Of a stretch of DNA of 64,000 nt, positions 4,000-61,029 are shown piece after piece; position 1 is the stretch's first letter; each line of letters starts with the position of its first letter. The DNA is taken from the NCBI RefSeq assembly GCF_026342405.1, contig NZ_JAPEMU010000001.1:5890001-5954000 (forward strand), in the 5' to 3' direction. This DNA comes from Kitasatospora sp. NBC_00240 (GTDB taxonomy: Bacteria > Actinomycetota > Actinomycetes > Streptomycetales > Streptomycetaceae). Made by a program: the position numbers and the translations under genes. The notes below the pieces were generated by a model, which was given only the letters and a program-made list of their open reading frames with translations, did no database searches and was not told the origin of the DNA.

Positions 4000-4482
4000 T
4001 CAGCTGCCGGGCAGGGCGCCGAGCAGCAGGCCGGCGGTGAGCACCACGTAGTTCGCCAGGGTCACCGTGCTGGTGGCCATCAGCGTCGCCGCGCGCGGCT
4101 GGCGGACCAGCTGGTAGGCGATCAGGCCGGGCACGATGAAGCCCAGCGTCTGGTTGGCGTACAGGGTCGGCAGCTCGCGCTGCAGCACCAGCATCACCGT
4201 CGCCTGGAGCACGACCCCGGTGAGCACCACGGCGGCGAACAGCCGCTTGCCGTAGAGGATCACCAGCTTCTGGACCAGCCGGGTCGCCAGGTAGGTGAGC
4301 AGCGTGACCCCGATCACGATGCCGACCCGCTGGAGGTCCTCGACCAGGGTCAGCGCCAGCCAGCCCGGGGTGATCATGCCGCCGGGGGAGAGGTTGGTGG
4401 TCAGGTAGCAGACGAGCGAGAAGACCAGGCCGAGCGCGATGCCGATGGCGGCGATCTCGGGGGTGAGCTCGGTGGGTATCAC
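4000..4482 (-). CDS. pgsC: PgsC/CapC-like polyglutamate synthase membrane subunit
   Basis: A 160-residue very hydrophobic protein with about five membrane segments and the family hallmarks GLVFSLVCYLTTNLSPGG near the N-terminus and QTLGFIVPGLIAYQLVRQ near the C-terminus. Bacillus PgsC/CapC (about 149 residues) partners PgsB/CapB in making and exporting poly-gamma-glutamate. The GTG at 4482 overlaps the pgsB stop by 4 bases (GTGA), so translation is coupled and a stoichiometric complex is expected. No PgsA/CapA or PgsE homologue is present in the window. Confidence 0.9.
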   Translation of the reverse strand: MIPTELTPEIAAIGIALGLVFSLVCYLTTNLSPGGMITPGWLALTLVEDLQRVGIVIGVTLLTYLATRLVQKLVILYGKRLFAAVVLTGVVLQATVMLVLQRELPTLYANQTLGFIVPGLIAYQLVRQPRAATLMATSTVTLANYVVLTAGLLLGALPGS

Positions 4483-6281
4483 TGCTGGTCTCCGTACTGG
4501 TACTGGAACTGGTCCGGCGCGGGCGGCCGCGGCTGCTGGTGCTGGTCCGGCGTGGTGTCCGGCCGCTGCCGGTACGGGCCGGGCGGCTGGTACCGGCCGG
4601 GCTGGGAGTACTGGCCGGGCTGGGGGAACCGGTCCGGCTGCCGGTACCGGTCCGGCTCCGGGTACTGGTCGGGCTGCCGGTACCGGTCCGTTGCGGGGTA
4701 GGGCGACGGCTCCCCGGACCGGTCCGCCGGGTGCTGCTGCCGGGGCCCCTGCCGGTGCGCTGCCGGGTACCCCTGCTGGGCCTGGTCCGGGTACGCCTGC
4801 GGGTGGGGGTGACCCGGCTGCGCGTACGGCGCCTGGCGCCCGTAAGGCTGCGGCTGTCCGTACGGCTCCGGCTGCGCGTACGGCTCCGGGTACGGACGGG
4901 CCTGCGGGGTCGCCTGCGACGGGACGCCGTCCCCGGGCCAGGGCGCGCCGCGGCGGGGCCGGGCGGGCCCGGGCACCGGTGCGAACACGTCGGCCGCCGG
5001 GGGGAACGGGTCCGCGGCCGGGGGGAACGGGTCCGCCGCCCGGGGCGCGAAGAGGTCCGCCGCCGTGGGCGCGTCCTCGTCCGCCGCCTCGTCCGCCTCG
5101 TCGTCGGGGGCGAGGTGGGTGAGCTCCTCCAGGAAGAGCTCGCCCTGGCCGTGGATGTTGCCGACCGCGACCAGCGAGGTGTCGGGGCCGAGCGCGGCCA
5201 GCAGTTCGGCGGTGAGCTCGGCCGGGTCGCGCCGGTCGCCGCCCAGGTCCACCACCCGGCCCTGCCAGTCGGCGGGGATGCCGTCCCGGGCGCTTCTGGT
5301 CGGGTGGCCGATCAGGAAGACCGTGTCCGGGTCCAGGTCGGGCACGATGCCGCCCATCTGGCCGTTGCGCTCGACCCGGTCCGGGCGGCAGTTGATCACC
5401 ACGTTCAGCGGCCGGTGGATCGCCCCGAGGTCCAGCAGCTGCTGCACGTTCATCAGCGTCGACTCCGGGTCGTTCGCCGCGAAGACGTTGGCGAAGCGCA
5501 GCCGCTTGCCGTCCGCGGTGCGGTAGCGGTCGACGGACAGCACGCCCGGGTCCGGCGGGGCCTCCCACATGCCGCGCAGGGCCGTCCCGCGCTCCACGCC
5601 GAGCAGTTCGGCGACGGCCAGCGCGATCGCCACGTTCTCCTTGAAGGTGAACCAGCTGAAGCCGCGCAGCTCCTCGTCGCTCACCGTCTCCGGGTCGACC
5701 ACGATCAGCTCGCAGTTCCGGCGGGCGGCCTCCTCGCGCAGGATGTCCACCCGGTCGCGCTCGGCCGTCACGCAGACACCGCCGACGGGCATCGAGCGGG
5801 AGAGGGAGCGCGCCACGTCGTCCAGGGTCGGCCCCATCTCGGCGAGGTGGTCCTCGCGGACGTTGCAGAGCACGCCGATGGTCGAGCGGATCAGCTTGGT
5901 CTGGTTGACCTCCTGGAGGGCCGGCATCACCGCCATGCACTCGATCACCAGGGCGTCGGGCCGGTAGGTGGCGGCCCGCCGGACGATGCCGATCTGCTCC
6001 ACCACGTTGGCGATGCCGAACTTGCGGTAGACCGGCTCCTCGGTCGCGTCGGGGTGGATGAACCGGGCCGCCGTGCCGGTGGTCTTGGCGACCGTCACCA
6101 GGTCGCCGCCGCGCAGCGCGCCGGCGCACAGCCGGGTGATCGAGCTCTTGCCCCGGATGCCGTTGACCAGCACCCGGACCGGGATCTGCTCCAGGGCCGC
6201 GAAGTGCCGGCGCTGTTCGACGATGCCCGCCACCAGCAGCACGGCGCAGCACACCACCAGCACGATGTAGAGGAAGAGCAC
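4479..6281 (-). CDS. pgsB: PgsB/CapB-like polyglutamate synthase with a 210-residue repetitive tail
   Basis: ATP-dependent amide ligase of the Mur-ligase-like CapB family, 600 residues. A membrane anchor (1-21) is followed by the nucleotide-binding loop NGIRGKSSIT (40-49) and the conserved TTGTAARFIHPD and NVREDHLAEMG stretches. The first ~390 residues correspond to a whole CapB protein. The rest (about 391-600) is an acidic DPFPPAAD segment followed by a low-complexity tail of Tyr, Gln, Pro, Arg and Asp in units such as DRYRQPD and DQYPEPD, probably disordered. The GTG at 6281 is preceded by AAGGA at good spacing; longer readings add only Arg/Pro-rich sequence. The tail is not part of the known enzymes. 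Confidence 0.9.
   Translation of the reverse strand: MLFLYIVLVVCCAVLLVAGIVEQRRHFAALEQIPVRVLVNGIRGKSSITRLCAGALRGGDLVTVAKTTGTAARFIHPDATEEPVYRKFGIANVVEQIGIVRRAATYRPDALVIECMAVMPALQEVNQTKLIRSTIGVLCNVREDHLAEMGPTLDDVARSLSRSMPVGGVCVTAERDRVDILREEAARRNCELIVVDPETVSDEELRGFSWFTFKENVAIALAVAELLGVERGTALRGMWEAPPDPGVLSVDRYRTADGKRLRFANVFAANDPESTLMNVQQLLDLGAIHRPLNVVINCRPDRVERNGQMGGIVPDLDPDTVFLIGHPTRSARDGIPADWQGRVVDLGGDRRDPAELTAELLAALGPDTSLVAVGNIHGQGELFLEELTHLAPDDEADEAADEDAPTAADLFAPRAADPFPPAADPFPPAADVFAPVPGPARPRRGAPWPGDGVPSQATPQARPYPEPYAQPEPYGQPQPYGRQAPYAQPGHPHPQAYPDQAQQGYPAAHRQGPRQQHPADRSGEPSPYPATDRYRQPDQYPEPDRYRQPDRFPQPGQYSQPGRYQPPGPYRQRPDTTPDQHQQPRPPAPDQFQYQYGDQQ
4555..4700 (-). repeat. imperfect tandem repeats encoding the Tyr/Gln/Pro tail of PgsB
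   Basis: Units built on CCGGTACCGGTCCGGCT and GGGTACTGGTCGGGCTG recur at roughly 18-36-base intervals. They encode the YRQPD, YPEPD and YSQPG motifs at the end of PgsB. Such slipping repeats are likely to vary in copy number between strains. Confidence 0.7.
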
Positions 6282-6394: not shown

Positions 6395-8656
6395 CTAGCG
6401 GTGTCCGGCACCGGCCGGGGTGGGCGGGGCCGCCGGCGGCCCTGGCGCCCGGGCCGCCCGGGCCGCCCGGCGGCCGGCGGACGGCCGGCCCAGCAGTTCC
6501 AGCTCCTGCCGGAGCAGTTCCAGGCTGCGGGCGACCGCCCCCACCTCGTCGTGGTGCGCGGGGTACAGCACCGTCCGGCGGTCGCCCGCGGCCAGCGCCT
6601 CCGCGCTCGCGGCGAGCCGGCGCAGCGGGATGCCGACCGCGACGAACAGCCAGCCGAGGCAGAGCGCGGCCGCGGCGAGGCCGAGCATCCCGGCCAGCAC
6701 GGCCCGCCGGTCGGCCTTGTTCTGGTCCAGGTGGAGCCAGGCCACCGGCTGGGCGCTGACCACGGACCAGCCGAGCCTGGCCACCGTGCCGTTGCCGCCG
6801 AGCGGGGCCGCCGCCAGCACGGCCGGGTCGCCGCCGTGGCGGACCACGTCGGCGGCGGCGCCCTTGCCGGCCGAGGTGAGCACCGCCTCGGCGCGGGCCT
6901 CGGGCAGGTCGCCGAAGGAGCTGAAGGCCTCGTTGGCGGAGAGCACCTTGTGCCGGTCGTCGATCAGCCAGACCCGGCCGAGGCCGGGGCGGGTCAGCAG
7001 GCCGTCGAGGAACTCGCGCTTGAACTCCCCGACCACCACGGCGGTCGGCGGGGCGGCGGCCGCGGCCGCCTCGGCGGCCGGGTCGGCGCTCTCGCCCTGG
7101 GCCTGCGGGCCGAGCCCGACCCGGGCGGCCACCTGCGGCTCCTTGCCGGACTTGTTGAGGAGCAGGACGCCGTCCGGCCCGACCGTCCCGGCGCCCGCGT
7201 GCCGCGGCGCCTCGCCGGCCCGGGCCACCACGGCGCCGGTGGGGCCGAGTACGTACAGCGACCGGTAGCGGCCGTGCTCGGCGAGGGTGCCGCGGAGCAC
7301 CGCCTCGATCGGTTTGGCCTCGGTACCGTCGCCGAGCGCCGGGGCGATCGACCTGAGGTCGGCGTAGCCCTCGTTGAGCGCCTGCCGGATCCGGTCCGCG
7401 GCGGTGTCGGTGCGGTCCCGCTGGGCGGAGACCACCTGGCCGGGTACCCGGATCGCGCCCTTGTCGCCGCTCAGCAGCAGCAGCGGGCCGGACCAGCTGA
7501 GGACGACCACCGCGCAGAGGGCGAGCGGCAGGGCGATGCCGGGGGCGAACCGGCGCCGGCGGCCCGCGGTGGCCGGCGGCTCGGTGGCCGGCGGCCTGGC
7601 GGGGTCGAGCAGTTGGAGGCGGACCTCCTCCAGGGCGCGGGTGATCCGGCCGGCCTCGCCCCGGGCGGGTCCGGAGACCGGCTGGTCGAGCCGCTCGCCG
7701 CGGGTCAGCCGGCGGGACTCCAGGAAGAGCCGCAGCAGCGGGCGCTGCAGGGTGAGCACGAGCAGGCCGGCGACCAGCAGGGCGACCAGCAGCAGGGCGC
7801 CGGTGGCGGCCAGCCCGAGCAGCGGGTGCCGCAGGCTGCCGGCCTGCCGGTCGACCGTGGTGCTGGAGACCAGGGTGAGGCCGAGCGGGGCGGCCAGGTC
7901 CTGGGCGGTGGTGCCGGCGACGGCCGAGTAGCCGACGATCCGGCGGGTCCCGTGCTGGTCCGGCGGGCCGACCAGGCTGCCGGAGGTGACCTCCGCGGTG
8001 CCTGCGGGCTGCCGCGCGACGCGGGTGCGGGCGGCGCCGACGATCCGCTTGTCGGGCTCGGAGGTGAGCGGCGGGCCGGCGCTGTCGAGCACGGCTCCGG
8101 TGTTGTCGAGCACCTGCAGGCTCTGGGACTTCCCGGTGGTGATGCCGGGCAGCCGCAGGCCGCCGGACGCGACCAGCAGGGCCCGCTCCCCGGTAGGGGT
8201 GGCCACCAGGGCGAAGGTCAGCAGTCGGGGGCCGCCGGCGGTGCCGGTGAGCACGGGGGCGGGCGCGGTGTCGCCGAGCGCGCCGAGGTCGAGCAGTCCG
8301 GCCAGCGGCACGGTCTCGCCGCGGGCGGCGAGCAGCTTGCCGCTGCCGGGCTGGAGGATCACGGTGCCGCGCCACTTCTGGTAGGCCTGGCCGAGGGCGC
8401 CGAGCACGGCGGCCGGCTCGGCGGGCGCGGTGTCGAAGCGGGCGGCGGCGCGGCGCAGGTCGGTGGCGTTCTCGTTGACGGCGGCGCGCAGCGCGGTGGC
8501 CCCGTCCTCGGCCGCGTACTGCTGGGACTCCCGGACGGCCTGCGGGGCGTCGTCCAGGCGCAGCCCGCCGACGGCGACGGCGGTGAGCGCGGAGACGGCC
8601 AGCAGCAGGACCAGCAGGAGGGCGATGGGTGGCCGGATCCCGCCGAGCAGGGGCAT
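6395..8656 (-). CDS. double extracytoplasmic-sensor membrane protein with HAMP regions, no output domain
   Basis: A 753-residue protein made of two similar halves. Each half has a membrane segment, an extracytoplasmic Cache-like region of roughly 200 residues, a second membrane segment and a HAMP-like linker; the second linker is seen after GWLFVAVGIPLRRLA and runs on to DEVGAVARSLELLRQELELL. The chain then ends in a short Ala/Pro/Arg tail, so there is no kinase, cyclase, GGDEF or methyl-accepting domain. It starts at ATG 8656 and lies 113 bases upstream of pgsB on the same strand, so it probably belongs to the polymer operon as a sensor or scaffold. The family name is inferred from layout only. 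Confidence 0.7.
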   Translation of the reverse strand: MPLLGGIRPPIALLLVLLLAVSALTAVAVGGLRLDDAPQAVRESQQYAAEDGATALRAAVNENATDLRRAAARFDTAPAEPAAVLGALGQAYQKWRGTVILQPGSGKLLAARGETVPLAGLLDLGALGDTAPAPVLTGTAGGPRLLTFALVATPTGERALLVASGGLRLPGITTGKSQSLQVLDNTGAVLDSAGPPLTSEPDKRIVGAARTRVARQPAGTAEVTSGSLVGPPDQHGTRRIVGYSAVAGTTAQDLAAPLGLTLVSSTTVDRQAGSLRHPLLGLAATGALLLVALLVAGLLVLTLQRPLLRLFLESRRLTRGERLDQPVSGPARGEAGRITRALEEVRLQLLDPARPPATEPPATAGRRRRFAPGIALPLALCAVVVLSWSGPLLLLSGDKGAIRVPGQVVSAQRDRTDTAADRIRQALNEGYADLRSIAPALGDGTEAKPIEAVLRGTLAEHGRYRSLYVLGPTGAVVARAGEAPRHAGAGTVGPDGVLLLNKSGKEPQVAARVGLGPQAQGESADPAAEAAAAAAPPTAVVVGEFKREFLDGLLTRPGLGRVWLIDDRHKVLSANEAFSSFGDLPEARAEAVLTSAGKGAAADVVRHGGDPAVLAAAPLGGNGTVARLGWSVVSAQPVAWLHLDQNKADRRAVLAGMLGLAAAALCLGWLFVAVGIPLRRLAASAEALAAGDRRTVLYPAHHDEVGAVARSLELLRQELELLGRPSAGRRAARAARAPGPPAAPPTPAGAGHR

Positions 8657-8963
8657 GTCCGCCCGGCGGCGGTAGCGGTGCTGGCGAGGCGGTGACGCGG
8701 CCGTGCTCAAGGAATGCCTCGATGTCGAAGGTGGGCGGCCTGCCCGCTCCGGACAGCTCGCATACGCAGTTTTACAACCTGAAAAGCATACGTATCCACG
8801 GTGGCTTGAGCGGACCGGAGGGGTCACAGCTGGATACCGATCCGCCCGGTCGGTCGGTTTTTCCACGTCCGGGCGCCGCGCGAGGGGTGTGCGGCCGGCG
8901 TCCCGCCCGGCGGCCGCGGCGGCCGCGGCGGTCGTGGCCCGCGGGGCCGGTAGGTTCTCCGGC
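8657..8963. other. divergent intergenic region between sensor gene and secreted hydrolase gene
   Basis: About 300 bases serve as the shared upstream region of the polymer operon (minus) and the 8964 gene (plus). An unusually AT-rich patch at about 8763-8802 (TTTTACAACCTGAAAAGCATACGTATCC) is the likely promoter zone. I see no small gene here. Confidence 0.5.
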
Positions 8964-9959
8964 ATGGAGATACGGGTTTCCCGGCGCCGGGTGCTGCCGG
9001 TGGTGCTGCTGCTGGCGCTGGCGGCGCTGGCGGGGGTGCTGACCGCGACGCTGCTCGGCGCCGGCCCGTCCGGGGCGAACGGCCGGGCCGGCGCCGGCAA
9101 GGCCTCCGCCGCCGGGCGCGCCACCGGCCCGGAGCAGGTGGACCTGGCGGCCCGGGTGGACGCCTGGACCGCCGGGTTCGGGCCCTCGACGCCCTACAGC
9201 TCCCCCGACGAGGGGCAGCGCCGGGCGGTCGTCGACGGCGTGGCGCAGGCGGTGGAGGGGCACCCGGACCAGGCGGACCGGAGCCTGCGGACGGTCGGCT
9301 ACCGGCTGACCGAGTTCGTGGACAGCGGCTCCGGGCGGCGGCTGGCCGAGATCGCCGACGGCTCCGGACACGAGGCCGAGCGCGGCTGGGGCCGGGTGTA
9401 CGTGGACCTGTCCGCGAAGGCGTCCTGGTCGGTGCAGGTGCCGCACCCGGTCTTCGACACCCGGACCGAACTGCTCGGCGTCGAGGTCTTCCGGGACGCG
9501 CCGGGCGGGGTGCTGGTGCTGGCCGGGGCGCACCGCAAGGCCGGGGCCGGCGGCTCCTCCGACCCGGCGCACCGGACGGACACCGTGTTCGACGCGGTGC
9601 TCCAGGCGACGGCGGCGCGCGGACTGCCGGGTCTCCAGGTGCACGGTTTCGACGAGGGCAGCCTGCCGGGGCAGGACGCGGTGCTGTCCGGCGGGACCGC
9701 GCCCCCCGGGCCGGCCCTCCGGTCGACCGCCGACGGCCTGGAGGGGGCCGGGTTCGCCGTCTGCCGGGCCTGGCGCGACAAGTGCGGCCACCTGGAGGGG
9801 ACCACCAACGTGCAGGGCCGTTTCGCGGCCGGCCTGGGCCTGCCCTGGCTGCACGTCGAGCTGGGCAACGGGCTGCGCACCGATCCGGAGCGGCGCGCGG
9901 AGGTGGCGGCCGTGCTGGCGGTCACCGCGCGGTCCTGGGGCGGCGGCGCCACACCGTGA
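8964..9959 (+). CDS. secreted putative metal-dependent hydrolase of unknown specificity
   Basis: A 331-residue exported protein: arginine-rich start, hydrophobic stretch at about residues 12-34, then a low-complexity Ala/Gly linker. The conserved-looking part contains QVPHPVFDTRTELLGVE, LAGAHRKAG, DPAHRTDTVFDAV and LQVHGFDEG. These are His- and Asp-rich islands in the order expected of a zinc amidohydrolase or carboxypeptidase-like fold. A similar His/Asp pattern reminds me of N-formylglutamate or polyglutamate hydrolases, but I cannot confirm this by eye. It diverges from the polyglutamate-synthase-like operon, so a polymer-degrading role is attractive but inferred. ATG 8964 is chosen because the signal sequence starts there. 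Confidence 0.55.
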   Translation: MEIRVSRRRVLPVVLLLALAALAGVLTATLLGAGPSGANGRAGAGKASAAGRATGPEQVDLAARVDAWTAGFGPSTPYSSPDEGQRRAVVDGVAQAVEGHPDQADRSLRTVGYRLTEFVDSGSGRRLAEIADGSGHEAERGWGRVYVDLSAKASWSVQVPHPVFDTRTELLGVEVFRDAPGGVLVLAGAHRKAGAGGSSDPAHRTDTVFDAVLQATAARGLPGLQVHGFDEGSLPGQDAVLSGGTAPPGPALRSTADGLEGAGFAVCRAWRDKCGHLEGTTNVQGRFAAGLGLPWLHVELGNGLRTDPERRAEVAAVLAVTARSWGGGATP

Positions 9960-10017
9960 ACGGGGGCGCCGGCCCGGGTGGTCCCGGCACGGCGGGCCGT
10001 CCGGCCGGTGGGAGCCG

Positions 10018-10455
10018 TCAGCAGGGCCGGCGGCGCAGGTCCAGCACGTAGTCGTGGGGGGCGCCGGCGCTCTCGGCCGCGTCCGCGATCAGCCCGAGGT
10101 AGCGGGCGGCGGGCAGGCCGCCCTCGTAGTCGTTCAGGACGTACGTCCAGACCTGGATGTCGCCGTCCAGGGTGTGCGCCCGCAGCTTCATCTTGCGGTA
10201 GATGCCGAGCTGCACGCCCTCCCAGCGGTCCAGCCCCTCCTCGTCCATCGGGGCGACGTCGTAGAGCGAGACGAAGACCTGCTCCTTCTCGTCCTCCACC
10301 ACGGTGGCCAGCGAGCCCTCCCAGCCGAGCTGCTCGCCGCCGAAGGTCAGCCGCCAGCCGTCCAGCCAGCCCGTGCCGCGCAGCGGGGAGTGCGGGGCAC
10401 GGCGGGTCATCTGCCGGGCATCGAGGTTGGTGGCATACGCGGCGTAGAGGGGCAT
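10018..10455 (-). CDS. gamma-glutamylcyclotransferase-like (AIG2/GGCT fold) protein
   Basis: A 145-residue cytoplasmic protein that opens with the fold's substrate-loop pattern (LYAAYATNLD) followed by an RGTGWLDGWRLTFGG strand, and has the acidic segment DVAPMDEEGLDRWEGVQ. GGCT enzymes release 5-oxoproline from gamma-glutamyl amines; many bacterial members have unknown substrates. ATG 10455 begins exactly at the conserved region. The gene is convergent with the 8964 gene and divergent from lpdA. Confidence 0.8.
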   Translation of the reverse strand: MPLYAAYATNLDARQMTRRAPHSPLRGTGWLDGWRLTFGGEQLGWEGSLATVVEDEKEQVFVSLYDVAPMDEEGLDRWEGVQLGIYRKMKLRAHTLDGDIQVWTYVLNDYEGGLPAARYLGLIADAAESAGAPHDYVLDLRRRPC

Positions 10456-10601
10456 GGGCGCCAGCCTACGGGAGTTGAACGCGGGAACCGGTCGGGGGAG
10501 CGTCCACGGGTGCGCCGGGCCGCCGCCGACCGGGGATCGTCGCCCGGCGCCGGCAGGGCAGCCGTGACCCCGGCGTGGCGGCGGGGTCGGCGTGCGGGAC
10601 A

Positions 10602-12056
10602 ATGGTGCACGTGACTCGGATCGTGATCATCGGTGGCGGACCTGGCGGATACGAGGCAGCCCTGGTGGCGGCCCAGCTCGGCGCGGAGGTGACCGTCGTC
10701 GACCGCGACGGCCTCGGCGGATCGGCGGTGCTCACGGACTGCGTGCCGTCGAAGACCCTGATCGCGACCGCGGAGGTGATGACCACCTTCGACAGCTCGT
10801 ACGAGGAACTCGGCATCATCGTCGCGGACGACACGCCCCCGATCGAGGGATCGGCCCGGGTCGTCGGCGTGGACCTCGGCAAGGTCAACCGACGCGTCAA
10901 GCGCCTGGCGATCGCGCAGTCGCACGACATCACCCAGTCCGTGACCCGGGCCGGCGTGACGGTGCTGCGCGGCAAGGGCCGGCTCGGCGGCGGCGGGCAG
11001 GCCGCGGACGGCTCCCGCGAGGTGCTGGTGGACGGCCCCGACGGCGGCGTCCAGACGCTGCGCGCCGACGCGGTGCTGATCGCCACCGGTGCCCACCCGC
11101 GCGAGCTGCCCGACGCGCAGCCCGACGGCGAGCGGATCCTGACCTGGACCCAGGTCTACGACCTGGAGGAGCTGCCGCGCGAGCTGATCGTGGTCGGCTC
11201 CGGCGTCACCGGCGCCGAGTTCGCCGGCGCGTACCAGGCGCTCGGCTCCAAGGTCACGCTGGTCTCCAGCCGCGACCGGGTGCTGCCGGGTGAGGACCCG
11301 GACGCCGCCGAGGTGCTGGAGGAGGTCTTCCGGCGCCGCGGCATGAACGTGATGAGCCGCTCGCGGGCCGAGGGCGCCAAGCGGGTGGGCGACCACGTGG
11401 AGGTCACTCTCGCCGACGGCCAGGTGATCCGGGGCACGCACTGCCTGATGGCGGTCGGCTCGATCCCCAACACCGCGGAGATGGGGCTGGAGGAGGCCGG
11501 GGTCAAGCTCAACGACTGGGGCCAGATCCAGGTCGACCGGGTCTCCCGCACCAGCGCCCCGGGCGTCTACGCGGCGGGCGACTGCACCGGCGTCTTCATG
11601 CTGGCCTCGGTGGCCGCGATGCAGGGCCGGATCGCGATGTACCACGCGCTCGGCGACGCGGTGCAGCCGCTGAACCTCAAGACGGTGGCGTCCAACGTCT
11701 TCACCGACCCGGAGATCGCCACGGTCGGCTACACCGCCGCCGACGTCTCCTGCGGAAAGATGGACGCGGTCGAGGTGAAGCTCCCGCTGCGCGGCAACCC
11801 GCGGGCCAAGATGCAGGGCATCAGGGACGGCTTCGTGAAGCTGTTCTGCCGCCCGGGCACCGGCATCGTGGTCGGCGGCGTCGTGGTGGCACCGCGCGCG
11901 AGCGAACTGATTCACCCGATTTCGCTCGCCGTGGACGCCAATTTGACGGTCGAACAGGTGGCCAGTGCGTTCACGGTCTACCCCTCGGTGTCCGGTTCCA
12001 CCGCCGAGGCCGCCCGGCAGCTGCACATCCGCAAGCGGGCCGAGGGCGAATCCTGA
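10602..12056 (+). CDS. lpdA: NAD(P)H-quinone dehydrogenase-like flavoprotein (LpdA type)
   Basis: A 484-residue pyridine-nucleotide-disulfide oxidoreductase family protein with the FAD motif GGGPGG (residues 11-16), an NAD(P)H-binding GSGVTGAEFAG and the AAGDCTG FAD motif. The redox pair of true disulfide reductases (CxxxxC) is incomplete: only Cys47 of LTDCVPSK remains, and Ala42 stands at the first cysteine. The C-terminal His-Glu pair is also replaced (VYPSVSGS). This is the pattern of Mycobacterium LpdA (Rv3303c), an NAD(P)H:quinone reductase rather than lipoamide dehydrogenase. Starts are possible at ATG 10602 or GTG 10611 (VTRIVIIGG). Confidence 0.88.
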   Translation: MVHVTRIVIIGGGPGGYEAALVAAQLGAEVTVVDRDGLGGSAVLTDCVPSKTLIATAEVMTTFDSSYEELGIIVADDTPPIEGSARVVGVDLGKVNRRVKRLAIAQSHDITQSVTRAGVTVLRGKGRLGGGGQAADGSREVLVDGPDGGVQTLRADAVLIATGAHPRELPDAQPDGERILTWTQVYDLEELPRELIVVGSGVTGAEFAGAYQALGSKVTLVSSRDRVLPGEDPDAAEVLEEVFRRRGMNVMSRSRAEGAKRVGDHVEVTLADGQVIRGTHCLMAVGSIPNTAEMGLEEAGVKLNDWGQIQVDRVSRTSAPGVYAAGDCTGVFMLASVAAMQGRIAMYHALGDAVQPLNLKTVASNVFTDPEIATVGYTAADVSCGKMDAVEVKLPLRGNPRAKMQGIRDGFVKLFCRPGTGIVVGGVVVAPRASELIHPISLAVDANLTVEQVASAFTVYPSVSGSTAEAARQLHIRKRAEGES

Positions 12057-56841: not shown

Positions 56842-58527
56842 TCAGCTTTCCCCGGTGGTCAGGCTCCTGGCGTCCGGAACCTGCTGGACCGGCAGCCGGA
56901 CGGCCCGCTTGCCGTTGTTGATCCAGTCGAAGGCCCATTCGGCGGACATCAGGGCGCCCTCCTGCCAGCCGGGGAGGGCGGAGACCTGGTCGCCGATCAC
57001 CATGAAGGTGTCCTGCCCCTGCGGGTAGATCAGGGTCGAGTACAGCGCCTTGTGCTCCACGACCCTGGGGTTCCAGTCGGCCCAGGCGCCCAACTGGTAC
57101 GGGACCTTGTGCCAGGCGATCGACAGACCCAGCGCGTCGGGCACGATCGCGTTGCCGGCGAACTCGGCGTGCAGCTTCGCCGCCGCCGCCCGGGCAAGGC
57201 TCAGCCGGTCCTCGTGCGAGCGGTCGCCGAACGTCCGGGCGCTCCCGTACGAGTTGTAGGCGCCGATCAGGGTGCCGTTGTCGGCGGGCGAGAACCAGTC
57301 GTGGGACGGGTACCAGATCTGCGAGATCTCGTGGTCGATCCAGCTGATGCCGCCGAAGATCTGGTACCGCTCGCCCTCCCAGAAGCGCCGGTCGGCCTGC
57401 CAGCCGAGCTTGCAGGCGGCGGCGAAGGGGGTGTCCTGGACGGCCGACCGGAAGTCCTCGGAGAAGTTCTGGAGGGTGACCTTCTGCCGCAGCACCGGGA
57501 TCGGGATGTTGCTGAGGCAGAAGTCGAAGCGGCCGGTGCGGGCGGCGCCGTCCTCCGTCCAGCCGACGATCACCCCGTCGCCGTCCAGTTGGACACCGGT
57601 GACCGGTGCGTCCGTCCTGACCGTTCCGCTCGGGAGCGCGGCGGCCGCGTGGCGCCAGATGGTGTCCATGCCGCCGACCGGCTGGAACGAGGTGGTGTGC
57701 CAGTAGAGGTTCGAGTCCTGCTGGACGCCGTGCTTCCAGAACTCGCTGGCCAGCAGGTCCGCCAGGGGCAGCGGGTCGGCGGGCTCCTCCATCTGCTGGA
57801 CGGTCAGGGTCCTGGCCAGGCCGGAGCGGGTGGAGCCGGTGTACGTGCGGTCGGCCCGAAGTGCGCCGAACTGGGTGAGCAGGTCGACGTACTGCGTGCG
57901 CTGCGCCGAGGTGAGCCCGTCCTCGGCCTCGGTCCCCTGGTGGACGACGGCGGCGAGGGCCTCGGCGAGGTGCCCCCGGGTGTCGTTGGCGATCCGGCGG
58001 TGGTGCCGGGGGCCGCCGCGCCACGCCTTGTCGGTCTGGTAGAGGTTGGCCGTGCTGGTGTGGATGTACGGCTCCAGCGGCACCTTGAGGCGGCGGCAGA
58101 GGTCGATGACCCGCTGGTGCATGTACGGGATCCGGCCGGCGCCGAGGTTGACGTAGAGGCCCTGGTCGAAGCCGCAGGTCTGGCGCCGGACCGAGCCGTC
58201 GGCCCACTCCTCGGTGAGCTGGTCGCCCGGGCGGGCGGTGAGGGTGCGGCCGCCGACCCGGCCGGTGGCCTCCAGGACGGTCACCCGGTAGCCGGCCTCG
58301 GTGAACCTGAGCGCGGCCGCCAGGCCGGCGGGGCCCGCGCCGAGGATCGCCACCGTTCTCCCGTCGCCCGCCCGGGCTGCGGACGGCGCGGCCACTGCGG
58401 AGGCGACGGGCCCCGCGGTGGCCGGCACCGCTCCGATCATGAGCTGCTGCAGGAGGGTCGCCGAGGCGGCGGCCCCGGCCACGGTCAGGAATGTGCGGCG
58501 GGACGTTCCCGACTCTGACTGGTCCAT
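56842..58527 (-). CDS. Tat-exported FAD-dependent amine/amino-acid oxidase
   Basis: A 561-residue flavoprotein of the monoamine oxidase/L-amino-acid oxidase family. It has a twin-arginine signal (SRRTFLTVAGAAASA at about 9-23), the FAD loop AILGAGPAGLAAALRF (about 60-75), VLEATGRVGGRT, NLGAGRIPYMH, and the C-terminal FAD segment VIGDQVSALPGWQEGALMSAEWAF. It would oxidise an amine or alpha-amino group outside the membrane, producing hydrogen peroxide. It is divergent from a small CxxC peptide gene plus MNIO oxidase, sharing a 161-base upstream region, so action on that pathway is possible. ATG 58527 has AAGGAG upstream. Confidence 0.92.
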   Translation of the reverse strand: MDQSESGTSRRTFLTVAGAAASATLLQQLMIGAVPATAGPVASAVAAPSAARAGDGRTVAILGAGPAGLAAALRFTEAGYRVTVLEATGRVGGRTLTARPGDQLTEEWADGSVRRQTCGFDQGLYVNLGAGRIPYMHQRVIDLCRRLKVPLEPYIHTSTANLYQTDKAWRGGPRHHRRIANDTRGHLAEALAAVVHQGTEAEDGLTSAQRTQYVDLLTQFGALRADRTYTGSTRSGLARTLTVQQMEEPADPLPLADLLASEFWKHGVQQDSNLYWHTTSFQPVGGMDTIWRHAAAALPSGTVRTDAPVTGVQLDGDGVIVGWTEDGAARTGRFDFCLSNIPIPVLRQKVTLQNFSEDFRSAVQDTPFAAACKLGWQADRRFWEGERYQIFGGISWIDHEISQIWYPSHDWFSPADNGTLIGAYNSYGSARTFGDRSHEDRLSLARAAAAKLHAEFAGNAIVPDALGLSIAWHKVPYQLGAWADWNPRVVEHKALYSTLIYPQGQDTFMVIGDQVSALPGWQEGALMSAEWAFDWINNGKRAVRLPVQQVPDARSLTTGES

Positions 58528-58688
58528 CGGAAGCTCCTTCGGCCAGGAATGACCGTGCTTGTTCTGTGCACGCGGCCCCAACCGGGCGCGCCTTTCACTC
58601 AGCGTGACGACTCGGTTGCATCATGACAGCGAGGGCGCAGTCACAGCGGCTCCGACGGGGCGGACTGCGGCCGGATCGGAGCACCAGG
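58528..58688. promoter_or_regulatory. shared divergent promoter region of amine oxidase and peptide-MNIO genes
   Basis: 161 bases between the two start codons. The less GC-rich middle (about 58590-58630, TTTCACTCAGCGTGACGACT then GGTTGCATCATGAC) is the probable promoter zone. No regulator gene is adjacent. Confidence 0.45.
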
Positions 58689-58931
58689 ATGGCGAACGTG
58701 ATCAACAGAGGGCCCCTCCCGGACCCGTGGCGGCCCGTCAACATCACCGTGCCGGTGTCGGTCGCGAACGACTTCGACCAGATGCAGAGCGTCATCAAGG
58801 AGGTGATGACGCAGTTGGGCTGCCCGACCTGTCACTCCGGGCGCGACCTGCGGATCAACATCGCCACGGACTTCGTGGTGAACCCGGCCGGCCAGGTGCA
58901 GCAGGCCGTCGGCGTCTCCTTCGGCGGTTAG
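58689..58931 (+). CDS. 80-residue CxxC peptide, candidate RiPP precursor for the MNIO enzyme
   Basis: Small protein from ATG 58689 (GGAG seven bases upstream). The first ~25 residues are Pro-rich (RGPLPDPWRPVNITVPVSV), then comes a short helix (DFDQMQSVIKEVMTQLG). GCPTCHSGRDLRI follows with the only cysteines, at 45 and 48, and then a hydrophobic C-terminal half ending VSFGG. No signal peptide. It sits 6 bases before an MNIO (DUF692) oxidase gene, the usual place of a precursor peptide; MNIO enzymes often act on cysteines. The assignment is from context and size, not from a known family. Confidence 0.65.
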   Translation: MANVINRGPLPDPWRPVNITVPVSVANDFDQMQSVIKEVMTQLGCPTCHSGRDLRINIATDFVVNPAGQVQQAVGVSFGG

Positions 58932-58937
58932 CCGGCC

Positions 58938-60452
58938 ATGACGCGTCTCGGCGTGGGCCTCACCTACGTACCCGGTCTCGACCGGATCATCGACGCCTGC
59001 GCCGACCTGCTGGACGTCGTCGAGATCGAACCGCAGACCCTCTGGCGGTCGCGCACCGACGGCGGGATCACCCTCGACGAGGAGGTGCTCCGCAGGATCG
59101 CCGACCTGCCCGGCGCCCGGCTGCTGCACGGGGTCGGCAACCCCGTCGGGGGTTGCCGACCGCCGGACCGCCGCCACACCGCCCTGGTCGGGGAGTTGGC
59201 CGAGCGGCTCGGCGCGCCCTGGGTGAGCGAGCACCTGGCGTTCAACCGGGTCGGCGGCCGGGGAGCGGATTTCCGCACCGGCTTCATGCTGCCGCCGTGC
59301 CCCACCCCCGGCGGCAGCCGCCGCGGGATCGGGTCGGTCCGGGCGATGGCGGCGGCGCTCCCGGTGCCGCTCGCCGTGGAGATCGGCGCCAACTACCTGC
59401 GGCCGCGCCCGGGGGAGCTGACCGACGGGGAGTTCGCCCGGCGGGTGGCCGAGGGCAGCGGCTGCGGCCTGCTGCTCGACCTGCACAACGTACTGGCCAA
59501 CGAACGCAACGGCCGGGGCAGTGTGGACGACCTGCTGGCCGCCCTCCCGCTGGAGCGGGTCTGGGAGGTTCACCTGGCCGGCGGCGTCGAGTACCGCGGG
59601 TACTGGCTGGACGCCCACAGCGGCCTCCCCGACGAGGAGTTGACCGCCCTCGCCGAACGGATCCTGCCCCGGCTGCCCTCGCTCCGGGCCGTCCTGTTCG
59701 AGGTGACCTCCTCGGCGGTGCCGCAGCTCGACCCGGTGGCCGTCCGGGAGTTGCTGGCCAGGATGCGCGCGATGTGGCCGGACGACGCCGGCGCTCCGCT
59801 GCCGCCGCTGCGTCCGCTGCCGCCGGCGCCGCCCGGGCAGTGCTCGCAGCCGCCGGACGGCCCGGTCGGTCCGGCCGACACCGTGGACCCGCAGGAGTGG
59901 GAGTACGCGCTGGGCAGCCTGGCGATCGGGCGCGAGCCCGGCACCCCGCTGGCCCGGGAGCTGTCGGCGGACCCGGCGATCGCGCTGATCCGCGACCTCG
60001 TCACCGAGTTCCGGGGCAGCGCCCTGGTCGGAGCCCTCCGCTGGACGATGCGGCTGCTGCTCCTCACGGTCGGCGGGGGCGGGACGCGCGAACTGCTCGA
60101 CGGCTATGTGCTCGCCTGCCCGCCGCAGCTCTTCGCCACCGAGGAGGCCTTCGCCTTCGCGGCGCACCTGCGCCAGGTCCGCCCCCGGGTCAGCTGGCTG
60201 GACGACGTCCTCGAACTGGACCTGGGCCTGCTCAGGGCGCAGGTCGACGGGCAGCCGTGCACCGTCCGCCTCGGCACCGATCCCACCGCCCTGATGACGG
60301 AGCTGGGGGCCGGCCGGCTGCCGGTCGACCCCCCGCGTGGCACCTTCCAGGTGCGGCTGGTGGACGACAGCCGCCCCGCCTGTGAGTCGGCCGCCCCGGG
60401 GGGTGGACCGGATCAGCCGGCACGCCTGGCCCGCTCGTACTCGGCCACGTAG
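58938..60452 (+). CDS. MNIO (DUF692) multinuclear iron oxidase fused to a partner-like domain
   Basis: A 504-residue protein. Residues 1-270 form the TIM-barrel DUF692/MbnB-type domain with every expected metal ligand position filled: His64 (LLHGVG), His99 (SEHLAF), Glu148, Asp181 and His183 (LLDLHN), His212 (EVHLAGG), Asp225 and His227 (LDAHSG), Glu255. These enzymes use two or three irons to modify Cys, Asn or Asp in peptides. Residues about 305-470 are a second domain resembling the separate partner proteins of MNIO systems (RVSWLDDVLELDLGLLRAQV then TVRLGTDPTALM). ATG 58938 follows the peptide gene by 6 bases, so co-translation is likely. Its 3' end overlaps the convergent 60413 gene by 40 bases. 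Confidence 0.88.
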   Translation: MTRLGVGLTYVPGLDRIIDACADLLDVVEIEPQTLWRSRTDGGITLDEEVLRRIADLPGARLLHGVGNPVGGCRPPDRRHTALVGELAERLGAPWVSEHLAFNRVGGRGADFRTGFMLPPCPTPGGSRRGIGSVRAMAAALPVPLAVEIGANYLRPRPGELTDGEFARRVAEGSGCGLLLDLHNVLANERNGRGSVDDLLAALPLERVWEVHLAGGVEYRGYWLDAHSGLPDEELTALAERILPRLPSLRAVLFEVTSSAVPQLDPVAVRELLARMRAMWPDDAGAPLPPLRPLPPAPPGQCSQPPDGPVGPADTVDPQEWEYALGSLAIGREPGTPLARELSADPAIALIRDLVTEFRGSALVGALRWTMRLLLLTVGGGGTRELLDGYVLACPPQLFATEEAFAFAAHLRQVRPRVSWLDDVLELDLGLLRAQVDGQPCTVRLGTDPTALMTELGAGRLPVDPPRGTFQVRLVDDSRPACESAAPGGGPDQPARLARSYSAT

Positions 60453-60739
60453 TGCTTCGGGCTCCGGCCGGTGCCGACCTGGTGGACCGTGCCTCTCTCG
60501 CGGTCCACCAGGAAGGGGCCGTTCCCGCCGAGCCGCGGGCCGGTCGCCCGGCCCTCGACGACCTCCCGGAGGGTCCAGTAGGCGATCCAGCCGAAGGAGA
60601 CCTGGTCCATCCGGCTGATCGCGAACAGGCACTCCGGCCCGGCCGGGCGCTCACGTTCGGGCCGGTTCCGCCAGTACTTCTCCTCCACCAGGGCCAGTTG
60701 CCCCATCACCAGCGCCGTCGCCTCGTCCTTGGTCAGCAT
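60413..60739 (-). CDS. YrhB/Imm35-domain protein
   Basis: A 108-residue cytoplasmic protein from ATG 60739: VEEKYWRNRPERERP, then FGWIAYWTLREVVEG, GNGPFLVDRERGTVHQVGTG and HYVAEYER. This is the pattern of the YrhB/immunity protein 35 family, found as immunity proteins of polymorphic toxins and in many stand-alone copies. No toxin is adjacent. Its last 40 bases overlap the convergent MNIO gene. Confidence 0.78.
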   Translation of the reverse strand: MLTKDEATALVMGQLALVEEKYWRNRPERERPAGPECLFAISRMDQVSFGWIAYWTLREVVEGRATGPRLGGNGPFLVDRERGTVHQVGTGRSPKHYVAEYERARRAG

Positions 60740-60792
60740 GAGGCGATGCTGCCAGGCCGGCCGCGGCCACCGTGGGGCGGGTCGGTCCTCCG

Positions 60793-61029
60793 TCAGCGGG
60801 ACTTCGGCACGTAGCCGATGTCGAACTCGCCGTCGGCGGCGCCCAGTCGGAACGCCTCCCACTCGCCCTGGGTGAAGACCAGCACCGGGCCCTCGGGGTC
60901 GGCGCCGTTGCGCATGGCGATGTGGTCGTCGACGAAGGCGATCTGCGGGCCGTCCGACTGGCCGGGGGCGGCCAGCCAGATCGCGTCCGTCAGGTCGAGC
61001 GTCGGCTTCGGCGAAGTCGCTTCCGTCAT
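60793..61029 (-). CDS. DUF397-like small protein
   Basis: A 78-residue protein (ATG 61029) with IWLAAPGQSDGPQIAFVDDHIAMRNGADPEGPVLVFTQGEWEAF, recalling the C-terminal half of DUF397 proteins (VxxRxSxxPxGPxLxFTxxEWxAF). It has no XRE partner next to it; the nearest is 5 kb away. Confidence 0.78.
   Translation of the reverse strand: MTEATSPKPTLDLTDAIWLAAPGQSDGPQIAFVDDHIAMRNGADPEGPVLVFTQGEWEAFRLGAADGEFDIGYVPKSR

Follow-up and report, generated by a model that had tools for sequence, protein, structure and literature searches.

Described MNIO systems and the locus in the window

MNIO enzymes carry out unusual cysteine chemistry, and most of them need a separate partner protein, which is awkward to keep in a 1:1 complex. 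According to the text of one source, MbnBC and HvfBC have a mixed-valent diiron site as their active centre, with the substrate Cys believed to bind at the ferric iron, HvfC is required to reach the mixed-valent state, and an artificial HvfB-HvfC fusion, built to ensure a 1:1 ratio, is active (PMC13419390). Copper is bound by 5-thiooxazole peptides, as described in the text of a further paper (PMC13097082). In the bufferin and captophorin systems (BufB-BufC, HvfB-HvfC, and FonB-FonC), an MNIO and a separate DUF2063-type partner act on Cys residues of precursors with a Sec signal peptide and multiple Cys. In the TglH/TglI system, the DUF2063-related partner TglI is also a separate protein, and the target Cys of TglA is C-terminal, added from Cys-tRNA (PMC9016710). 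Fused MNIOs are named in the text of two sources, namely a nitroreductase fusion and MovX, which has a winged-helix domain (PMC12452194), and MovX and ChrH (PMC13419390); the extra domain is a C-terminal RRE or winged-helix domain in MovX and a domain of unknown function in ChrH (PMC13419390, PMC12452194). In addition, the text of a survey of about 14,000 MNIOs by Antoine et al. (2025) describes adjamnio-7, the CxxC precursors lacking a signal peptide that belong to MNIO cluster #7, reported in silico only and represented by WP_078758616 in Novilysobacter spongiicola (PMC12452194).

The window analysed here is a stretch of 64,000 nucleotides from the genome of Kitasatospora sp. NBC_00240. As a preliminary description of this DNA had claimed, it contains a gene for an 80-residue precursor-like peptide with a CPTC motif (58689..58931, forward strand), followed after a gap of 6 nt by a gene for an MNIO, here recognised as an MNIO-partner fusion enzyme of 504 aa (58938..60452, forward strand). 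The locus had been taken to start at 58528; the pair itself is real, but the first 161 nt from that position belong to the intergenic region that adjoins a divergent flavin amine oxidase gene. The further claim that the peptide is unlike any recognised precursor type is open to doubt, since adjamnio-7 had already been reported (PMC12452194), the two being likened by the description in that text only. Like adjamnio-7, the window peptide is a small precursor-like CxxC peptide with no evident signal peptide, and its gene lies beside that of an MNIO; unlike adjamnio-7 as described in the survey's text (not its figures), the system here has an MNIO-partner fusion, His in place of the first Cys in some members, and a CHSG core (PMC12452194). 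On this comparison by description only, it is reasonably likely that the window pair belongs to the same family as adjamnio-7. The pair has probably already been listed in silico as a precursor family, and no remark on the self-partnered enzyme or the sharper motif was found: a literature search of limited depth gave no mention of a natural MNIO-DUF2063 fusion, and a literature text search found motif strings such as CHSGFD in no paper.

The other described systems share single traits with the window locus. The enzyme resembles TglH in its barrel, TglH being the closest solved fold with all nine ligand residues including LDLHN, but its partner is fused where TglI is separate, and nothing similar to the C-terminal target Cys of TglA, as described in the text of PMC9016710, was seen in the window peptide. 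Like the bufferin and captophorin systems, it combines an MNIO with a DUF2063-type partner, whereas a Sec signal peptide together with several Cys was not found by reading in any of 19 precursor copies, and the window MNIO falls far below the BufB and HvfB-family cut-offs. As in MovX and ChrH, the MNIO carries an extra domain in the same chain, here DUF2063-like; the precursor of those systems differs from that of the window, and the likeness rests on description, save for a weak match to the ChrH model. The explanation favoured here, with moderate confidence, is a two-gene cassette in which a self-partnered enzyme oxidises Cys48 of a cytosolic peptide.

Conservation and distribution of the pair

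The pair was found at 16 distinct loci in six phyla (the window, L010-L014, L017, L020-L025, L027, L057/L103, and L102), the distance between the peptide and MNIO genes ranging from -20 to +34 nt. The gaps computed for 14 loci were 6, 6, 6, 6, 10, 34, 13, 7, -20, -17, 2, 8, 19, and 2 nt, and those read from coordinates were 18 nt for L057 and 32 nt for L102. A peptide search of 150 relatives detected seven genomes, the own genome included, six of which had the MNIO gene directly downstream, the seventh being L015. Furthermore, a scan of genome contigs with a six-row peptide alignment revealed nine relatives among 33 pattern matches: three Streptomycetaceae (two on the same contigs as G028 and G008), an Anaerolineae MAG (Chloroflexota), two Chitinophagaceae MAGs, Fodinibius halophilus (Balneolota), a Proteobacteria MAG, and an Acidobacteriota MAG. 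In all nine, the peptide is closely followed by an MNIO of about 467-503 aa. The conservation of CHSG in these nine loci is partly by construction because the scan pattern contained CHSG, but the adjacency of peptide and MNIO is not.

The MNIO was also used as a query. Across 70 genomes of the genus, searched with an MNIO alignment and in which MNIO-domain matches as such are common (60 of 70 at E 1e-10 or better), six full-length matches scored 692-717 bits and all others 171 bits or less; these six genomes were exactly the six with peptide plus MNIO, the peptide gene lying directly upstream in each. Within the class (394 genomes), the own enzyme scored 979 bits and that of G487 329 bits, the rest reaching about 117 bits or less, and a peptide with CPGCHSG was found upstream of the G487 MNIO. 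Only G501 and G1521 matched at 1e-60 in the class of G501 (331 genomes), and G1521 has two peptides upstream of its MNIO. Both loci found via the MNIO alone (G487 and G1521) hence carry the peptide. The peptide lies upstream of a full-length MNIO homologue at 16 of the 16 loci found, as expected of the conserved adjacent pair foreseen in the preliminary description, and the six-of-six result in the genus shows the adjacency to be more than chance.

With the peptide, the weaker of the two search queries, 2 of 247 matched in the phylum of G502. The phylum of G501 gave 2 matches among 349, one of them judged due to chance, and further samples gave 1/149, 1/151, and 1/4. The family looks rare and scattered across bacterial phyla, and the relatives searches can miss members since limited numbers of first-look candidates were scored per genome (4 in the two class-wide MNIO searches, up to 23 in the phylum of G502, and 16 in that of G501). 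No match to the family was found on plasmids (E 0.1, 1e-20, and 0.01), and no relative on viral contigs. A candidate at L059 (G876) was rejected as a relative: it consisted of a 31-residue match (E 7.4e-4, or 6.6e-6 with an enlarged model) that lacks the motif Ser in a 3-kb locus with no MNIO, and was judged by reading to be due to chance.

In a tree of 69 barrel domains, the 16 fused MNIOs formed one side of a branch (support 100/99, present in 100% of 200 bootstrap trees) and are a single lineage among the domains compared; the 53 non-fused members were class and genus loci, the second MNIO of the own genome, and the BufB of L102, with no named MbnB, TglH, or ChrH, and the tree carries a long-branch warning, also inside the fused group. 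The mirror-tree correlation was 0.66, with 0 of 300 permutations as high, and is not relied on because shared descent alone can produce it.

The peptide and its conserved motif

The start of the peptide gene was placed at 58689, and not at an alternative in-frame ATG upstream (58623), because the homologues begin at the equivalent of 58689. A second support for this start is a GGAG, read from the sequence as the likely ribosome-binding site, 7 nt ahead of the ATG (58678..58681, forward strand). A promoter and terminator scan found nothing. The absence of a signal peptide, claimed earlier, was agreed with by reading only, none being evident. Pfam returned just sub-threshold matches for the window peptide (Zn_ribbon_8, E 0.1, 13.1 of 34.4 bits; T4_baseplate, E 0.18) and no match up to E 0.01 for 16 members of the family; likewise, NCBIfam gave no match for the window peptide up to E 1 and none for six further peptides up to 0.1. 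The predicted structure is weak (pLDDT 62) and looks like a small folded strand-helix-strand unit, and a fold search with this weak model found nothing under E 0.001. Relative to its nearest homologue, the peptide gene is under purifying selection (dN/dS 0.17). The other pairs of the window peptide gave dN/dS 0.25-0.78, indicating fast evolution there, and the value near 1 of the L012/L013 pair (1.03) counts against the favoured explanation.

The core motif of the window peptide, defined by alignment of homologues, is CPTCHSG (residues 45-51; 58821..58841, forward strand), in which the one CPTC occupies residues 45-48, and the motif of the family is [C/H]-x-x-C-[H/C/F/Y]-S-G. Cys48, Ser50, and Gly51 were invariant in the 16 alignment rows. 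When the two copies of L102 and the second copy of L103 were counted with these rows and L015 was left out (19 copies), position 45 was Cys in 16, His in two, and Tyr in one (Cys or His in 18 of 19), position 48 was Cys in 18 and Gly in one, and position 49 was His in 14, Tyr in two, Cys in two, and Phe in one. Position 50 was Ser in 18 and Ala in one, position 51 Gly in all 19, position 53 Asp in 17 and Lys in two, and position 62 Phe in 17, conservation thus extending to Phe62. CxxC as such is not a constant feature, because the first Cys swaps with His, as in metal sites; as judged from the alignment, the family core is Cys48-x-Ser-Gly and not CxxC. The original reading of an MNIO locus is strongly supported as regards a conserved adjacent MNIO and small Cys peptide, whereas its CxxC does not stand as an invariant (the first Cys being His in 2 of 19 copies), and its single CPTC is true of the window copy but not of the family.

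The precursor is duplicated at three loci (L020, L102, and L103). At L020, two tandem precursor repeats, with HxxCFSG and CxxCHSG, share one ORF (4241-4699) that overlaps the MNIO start by 20 nt, and L102 has two precursor genes (CTACCSGWDIRF). The second precursor paralogue of L103 (G603; 9339-9605, minus strand) keeps the rest of the pattern with no motif Cys (LGYPDGYAGFKFHF), its only Cys lying near an uncertain start. A degenerate peptide copy at L015 (G015; 9363-9569) keeps GPLPDPW without the motif Cys, and no MNIO was called alongside. Haem attachment via CPTCH was considered and rejected, as residue 49 may be H, C, F, or Y and no export signal was seen by reading.

Cys48, together with Ser50, is the most constant reactive side chain of the peptide, and known MNIO substrates are mostly Cys according to the survey's text (PMC12452194). 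The MNIO could instead modify the backbone of the peptide or one of the residues Cys45, His49, Ser50, and Asp53: the conservation of Ser50 and Gly51 equals that of Cys48, the Cys-less L103 paralogue retains the remaining pattern, and the text of one paper describes reactions in which MNIOs act on Phe, Asn, Asp, and homocitrulline (PMC13174530). Given that His49 and Asp53 vary and that Cys45 is replaced by His in two copies, modification at one of these other sites is considered improbable, although the variation of residue 49 and Asp53, the Cys-less L103 copy, and the degenerate L015 copy are also points against the favoured explanation. Cys48 is regarded as the likely target.

The enzyme and its fused partner domain

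The 504-aa ORF matched PF05114 over residues 61-264 (2.9e-33, 115.7 bits against a cut-off of 25), and its AlphaFold model (pLDDT 86.9, pTM 0.85) consists of a barrel (1-283), a linker (about 285-311), a helical domain (312-437), and a strand-helix-strand piece (441-474). The MNIO TIM-barrel domain was delimited as residues 1-285 (58938..59792, forward strand). All nine metal-ligand positions had been reported as filled, which is borne out: H64, H99, E148, D181, H183, H212, D225, H227, and E255 are the same in all 15 fused homologues compared, and each aligns to an identical TglH residue (9/9; HMMER alignment, by eye); they form the predicted iron-ligand set. Structural comparison revealed TglH as the closest fold of the barrel (8hi7_B, Z 28.1, rmsd 2.7, 274 residues aligned, 26% identity); 8hci_B reached Z 26.5, MbnB Z 25-26, and 3bww Z 24.2, and no other barrel exceeded Z 17. 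No NCBIfam maturase model was matched above its cut-off, the scores being 92.5 of 310 bits for BufB, 53.2 of 360 for the HvfB family, 82.5 of 400 for ApyH, and 27.4 of 600 for ChrH. The MbnB model TIGR04159 was not among the matches of the window MNIO up to 0.01, and it matched 4 of 15 MNIO homologues (best 3.2e-8).

Behind the barrel, a Pro-rich, low-confidence linker (residues 286-311; 59793..59870, forward strand; pLDDT under 50 at 289-293 and 295-310) leads to residues ~312-475 (59871..60362, forward strand), in which DUF2063-like helices are followed by the short strand-helix-strand piece. A profile of this C-terminal domain aligned over 138 columns with one built from eight DUF2063 partner proteins (hhalign probability 93, E 3.5e-7, score 52.2), compared with scores of 15.1 for the reversed DUF2063 profile, 15.0 for the reversed C-terminal profile, and 17.2 for the best of 100 column shuffles; the peptide profile against the DUF2063-partner profile, a further control, gave a probability of 0.1 over one column. 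The C-terminal profile comprised 14 rows, without L027, whose protein ends early, and L102, which was found later. On this profile evidence, residues ~312-475 are a fused DUF2063/PME-type partner domain, and since that domain is homologous to DUF2063 proteins, enzyme and partner are concluded to be one chain here. The name DUF692/MNIO oxidase in the preliminary description was accordingly right as to the MNIO and left out the partner-like second half of the chain.

PF09836 (DUF2063) itself did not match the window MNIO up to E 1, so that the partner domain is PME-type-2-like at most, and no Pfam call for the C-terminal domain exceeded its cut-off. A RAMPs match to the C-terminal half of the MNIO was set aside because it was below the cut-off (E 0.016, 16.1 of 22.1 bits). 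As for an RRE region after the helical domain, the model shows the short strand-helix-strand (441-474) only. Against the PDB, the domain sequence found nothing up to E 5 and the domain profile only unrelated chains (E 0.46 and 0.47); the domain is missing from the whole-enzyme PDB fold lists because the barrel fills the list, which is uninformative either way. The fused homologue of L027 ends early, without the last part of the partner domain, which counts against the favoured explanation.

The fused domain already fills the partner role, and this argues against the possibility that the peptide is an accessory, such as an iron/copper chaperone or an activator, of an MNIO acting on something else. 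In the text of the survey, moreover, the order of precursor and then MNIO is that of bufferin clusters (PMC12452194), and precursor-like duplications were found. An accessory role would fit a cassette without protease or exporter, the resemblance of the peptide to a small folded unit in its weak strand-helix-strand model, the Cys/His at position 45 with its likeness to a metal site, the sub-threshold Zn_ribbon_8 match (E 0.1), and the existence of a copy without the motif Cys; weighing both sides, we consider it quite unlikely. It is instead highly likely that the peptide is the substrate of the MNIO.

Gene surroundings and proposed function

Flanking ORFs (up to 6 kb on each side) of the 16 loci revealed no shared operon gene beyond window/L010 synteny, and four weak flank cross-matches were, by reading, of common types (kinase/regulator, ABC ATPase, and methyltransferase). 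At 4 of the 16 loci (L020, L023, L025, and L027), one flank or both were shorter than 3 kb, which leaves room for a shared distant gene. The divergent flavin amine oxidase gene (56842-58527, minus strand; Amino_oxidase 4.6e-33), with a twin-arginine-like N-terminus (SRRTFL, by reading), was rejected as part of the cassette, since tblastn against the flanks of the 16 loci (up to 8 kb, short for the same four loci) found it in the window and its nearest relative L010 only. Genes for exporters or proteases do not recur next to the pair at the 16 loci, and no metal gene is common to them, a bufferin neighbour occurring at one of the 16. Other neighbours include a methyltransferase in L011 and a mycothiol-S-transferase-like gene in L012; at L103, an HMA-domain gene (4936-5436) lies ~2 kb beyond the MNIO. 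In the window, a small gene convergent with the MNIO gene (60413-60862, minus strand) has a sub-threshold match to Imm35, an immunity protein (22.7 of 27.5 bits).

A biosynthetic cluster for a small secreted, methanobactin-like product, with unlinked enzymes excising the modified core and exporting it, has RiPP precedent in that exporters and peptidases can be unlinked, but is distinctly improbable here given the lack of any recurring flanking gene apart from the window/L010 synteny and a few weak common-domain matches, the central and not C-terminal position of the motif, and conservation reaching Phe62 (17/19).

Under the favoured explanation of a self-partnered enzyme acting on Cys48, the two genes would form a minimal peptide-modification cassette, with the MNIO-partner fusion as a self-contained maturase. 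Its C-terminal DUF2063-like domain would hold the precursor and support the active iron state, elsewhere the job of a separate protein, while the barrel would use O2 and a site of two or three irons to oxidise Cys48 within [C/H]xxC[H/C/F/Y]SG. Cys48 would most likely become a 5-thiooxazole or a related Cys-derived group; a thiooxazole-type product in particular is a tentative guess from family resemblance. The product is probably cytosolic, given the lack of a recurring exporter or protease gene and of any evident signal peptide, and it would stay full-length. There it might bind a soft metal, probably copper, via the altered Cys48 and Cys/His45, often with residue 49, metal binding by the product in the cytosol being conceivable but somewhat doubtful. 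An intracellular metalloprotein of the thiooxazole type, in which a single Cys of a folded cytosolic protein is modified and the MNIO serves cofactor building instead of natural-product synthesis, appears rather unlikely. If the product stays in the cytosol, MNIO chemistry would be extended from secreted metallophores to intracellular proteins. As a natural fusion with no recurring tailoring genes and a short putative substrate in which one Cys is nearly invariant, the cassette may offer a simple test-bed for the role of the partner and for a single-site MNIO product.

Other MNIO loci

At L102 (G1521; 6517-10914), a bufferin-like bufABC operon and, behind it, the two precursor copies and the fused MNIO lie back to back. 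The operon comprises a short Cys-rich ORF, whose N-terminus is signal-like and which matched nothing in Pfam, together with genes for an MNIO (PF05114, 8.4e-115) and for a DUF2063 protein (5.3e-22), and by these domain matches it is of the bufferin type, Buf2-like by reading. L072 (G064), from the same genus as the window, is a decayed locus: the MNIO is reduced to its C-terminal, partner-like part (148-1881), directly behind an IS605 OrfB/TnpB-type gene, and the peptide model found no nearby copy. The own genome has two PF05114 places, the second of which, near 3260300 (contig C1), is a single-domain MNIO of 278 aa. At this second locus (L016, 6265-7600), the next ORF, of 168 aa, may be a short partner protein, and a later ORF (9804-10571) presumably resembles a TIGR04222 protein.
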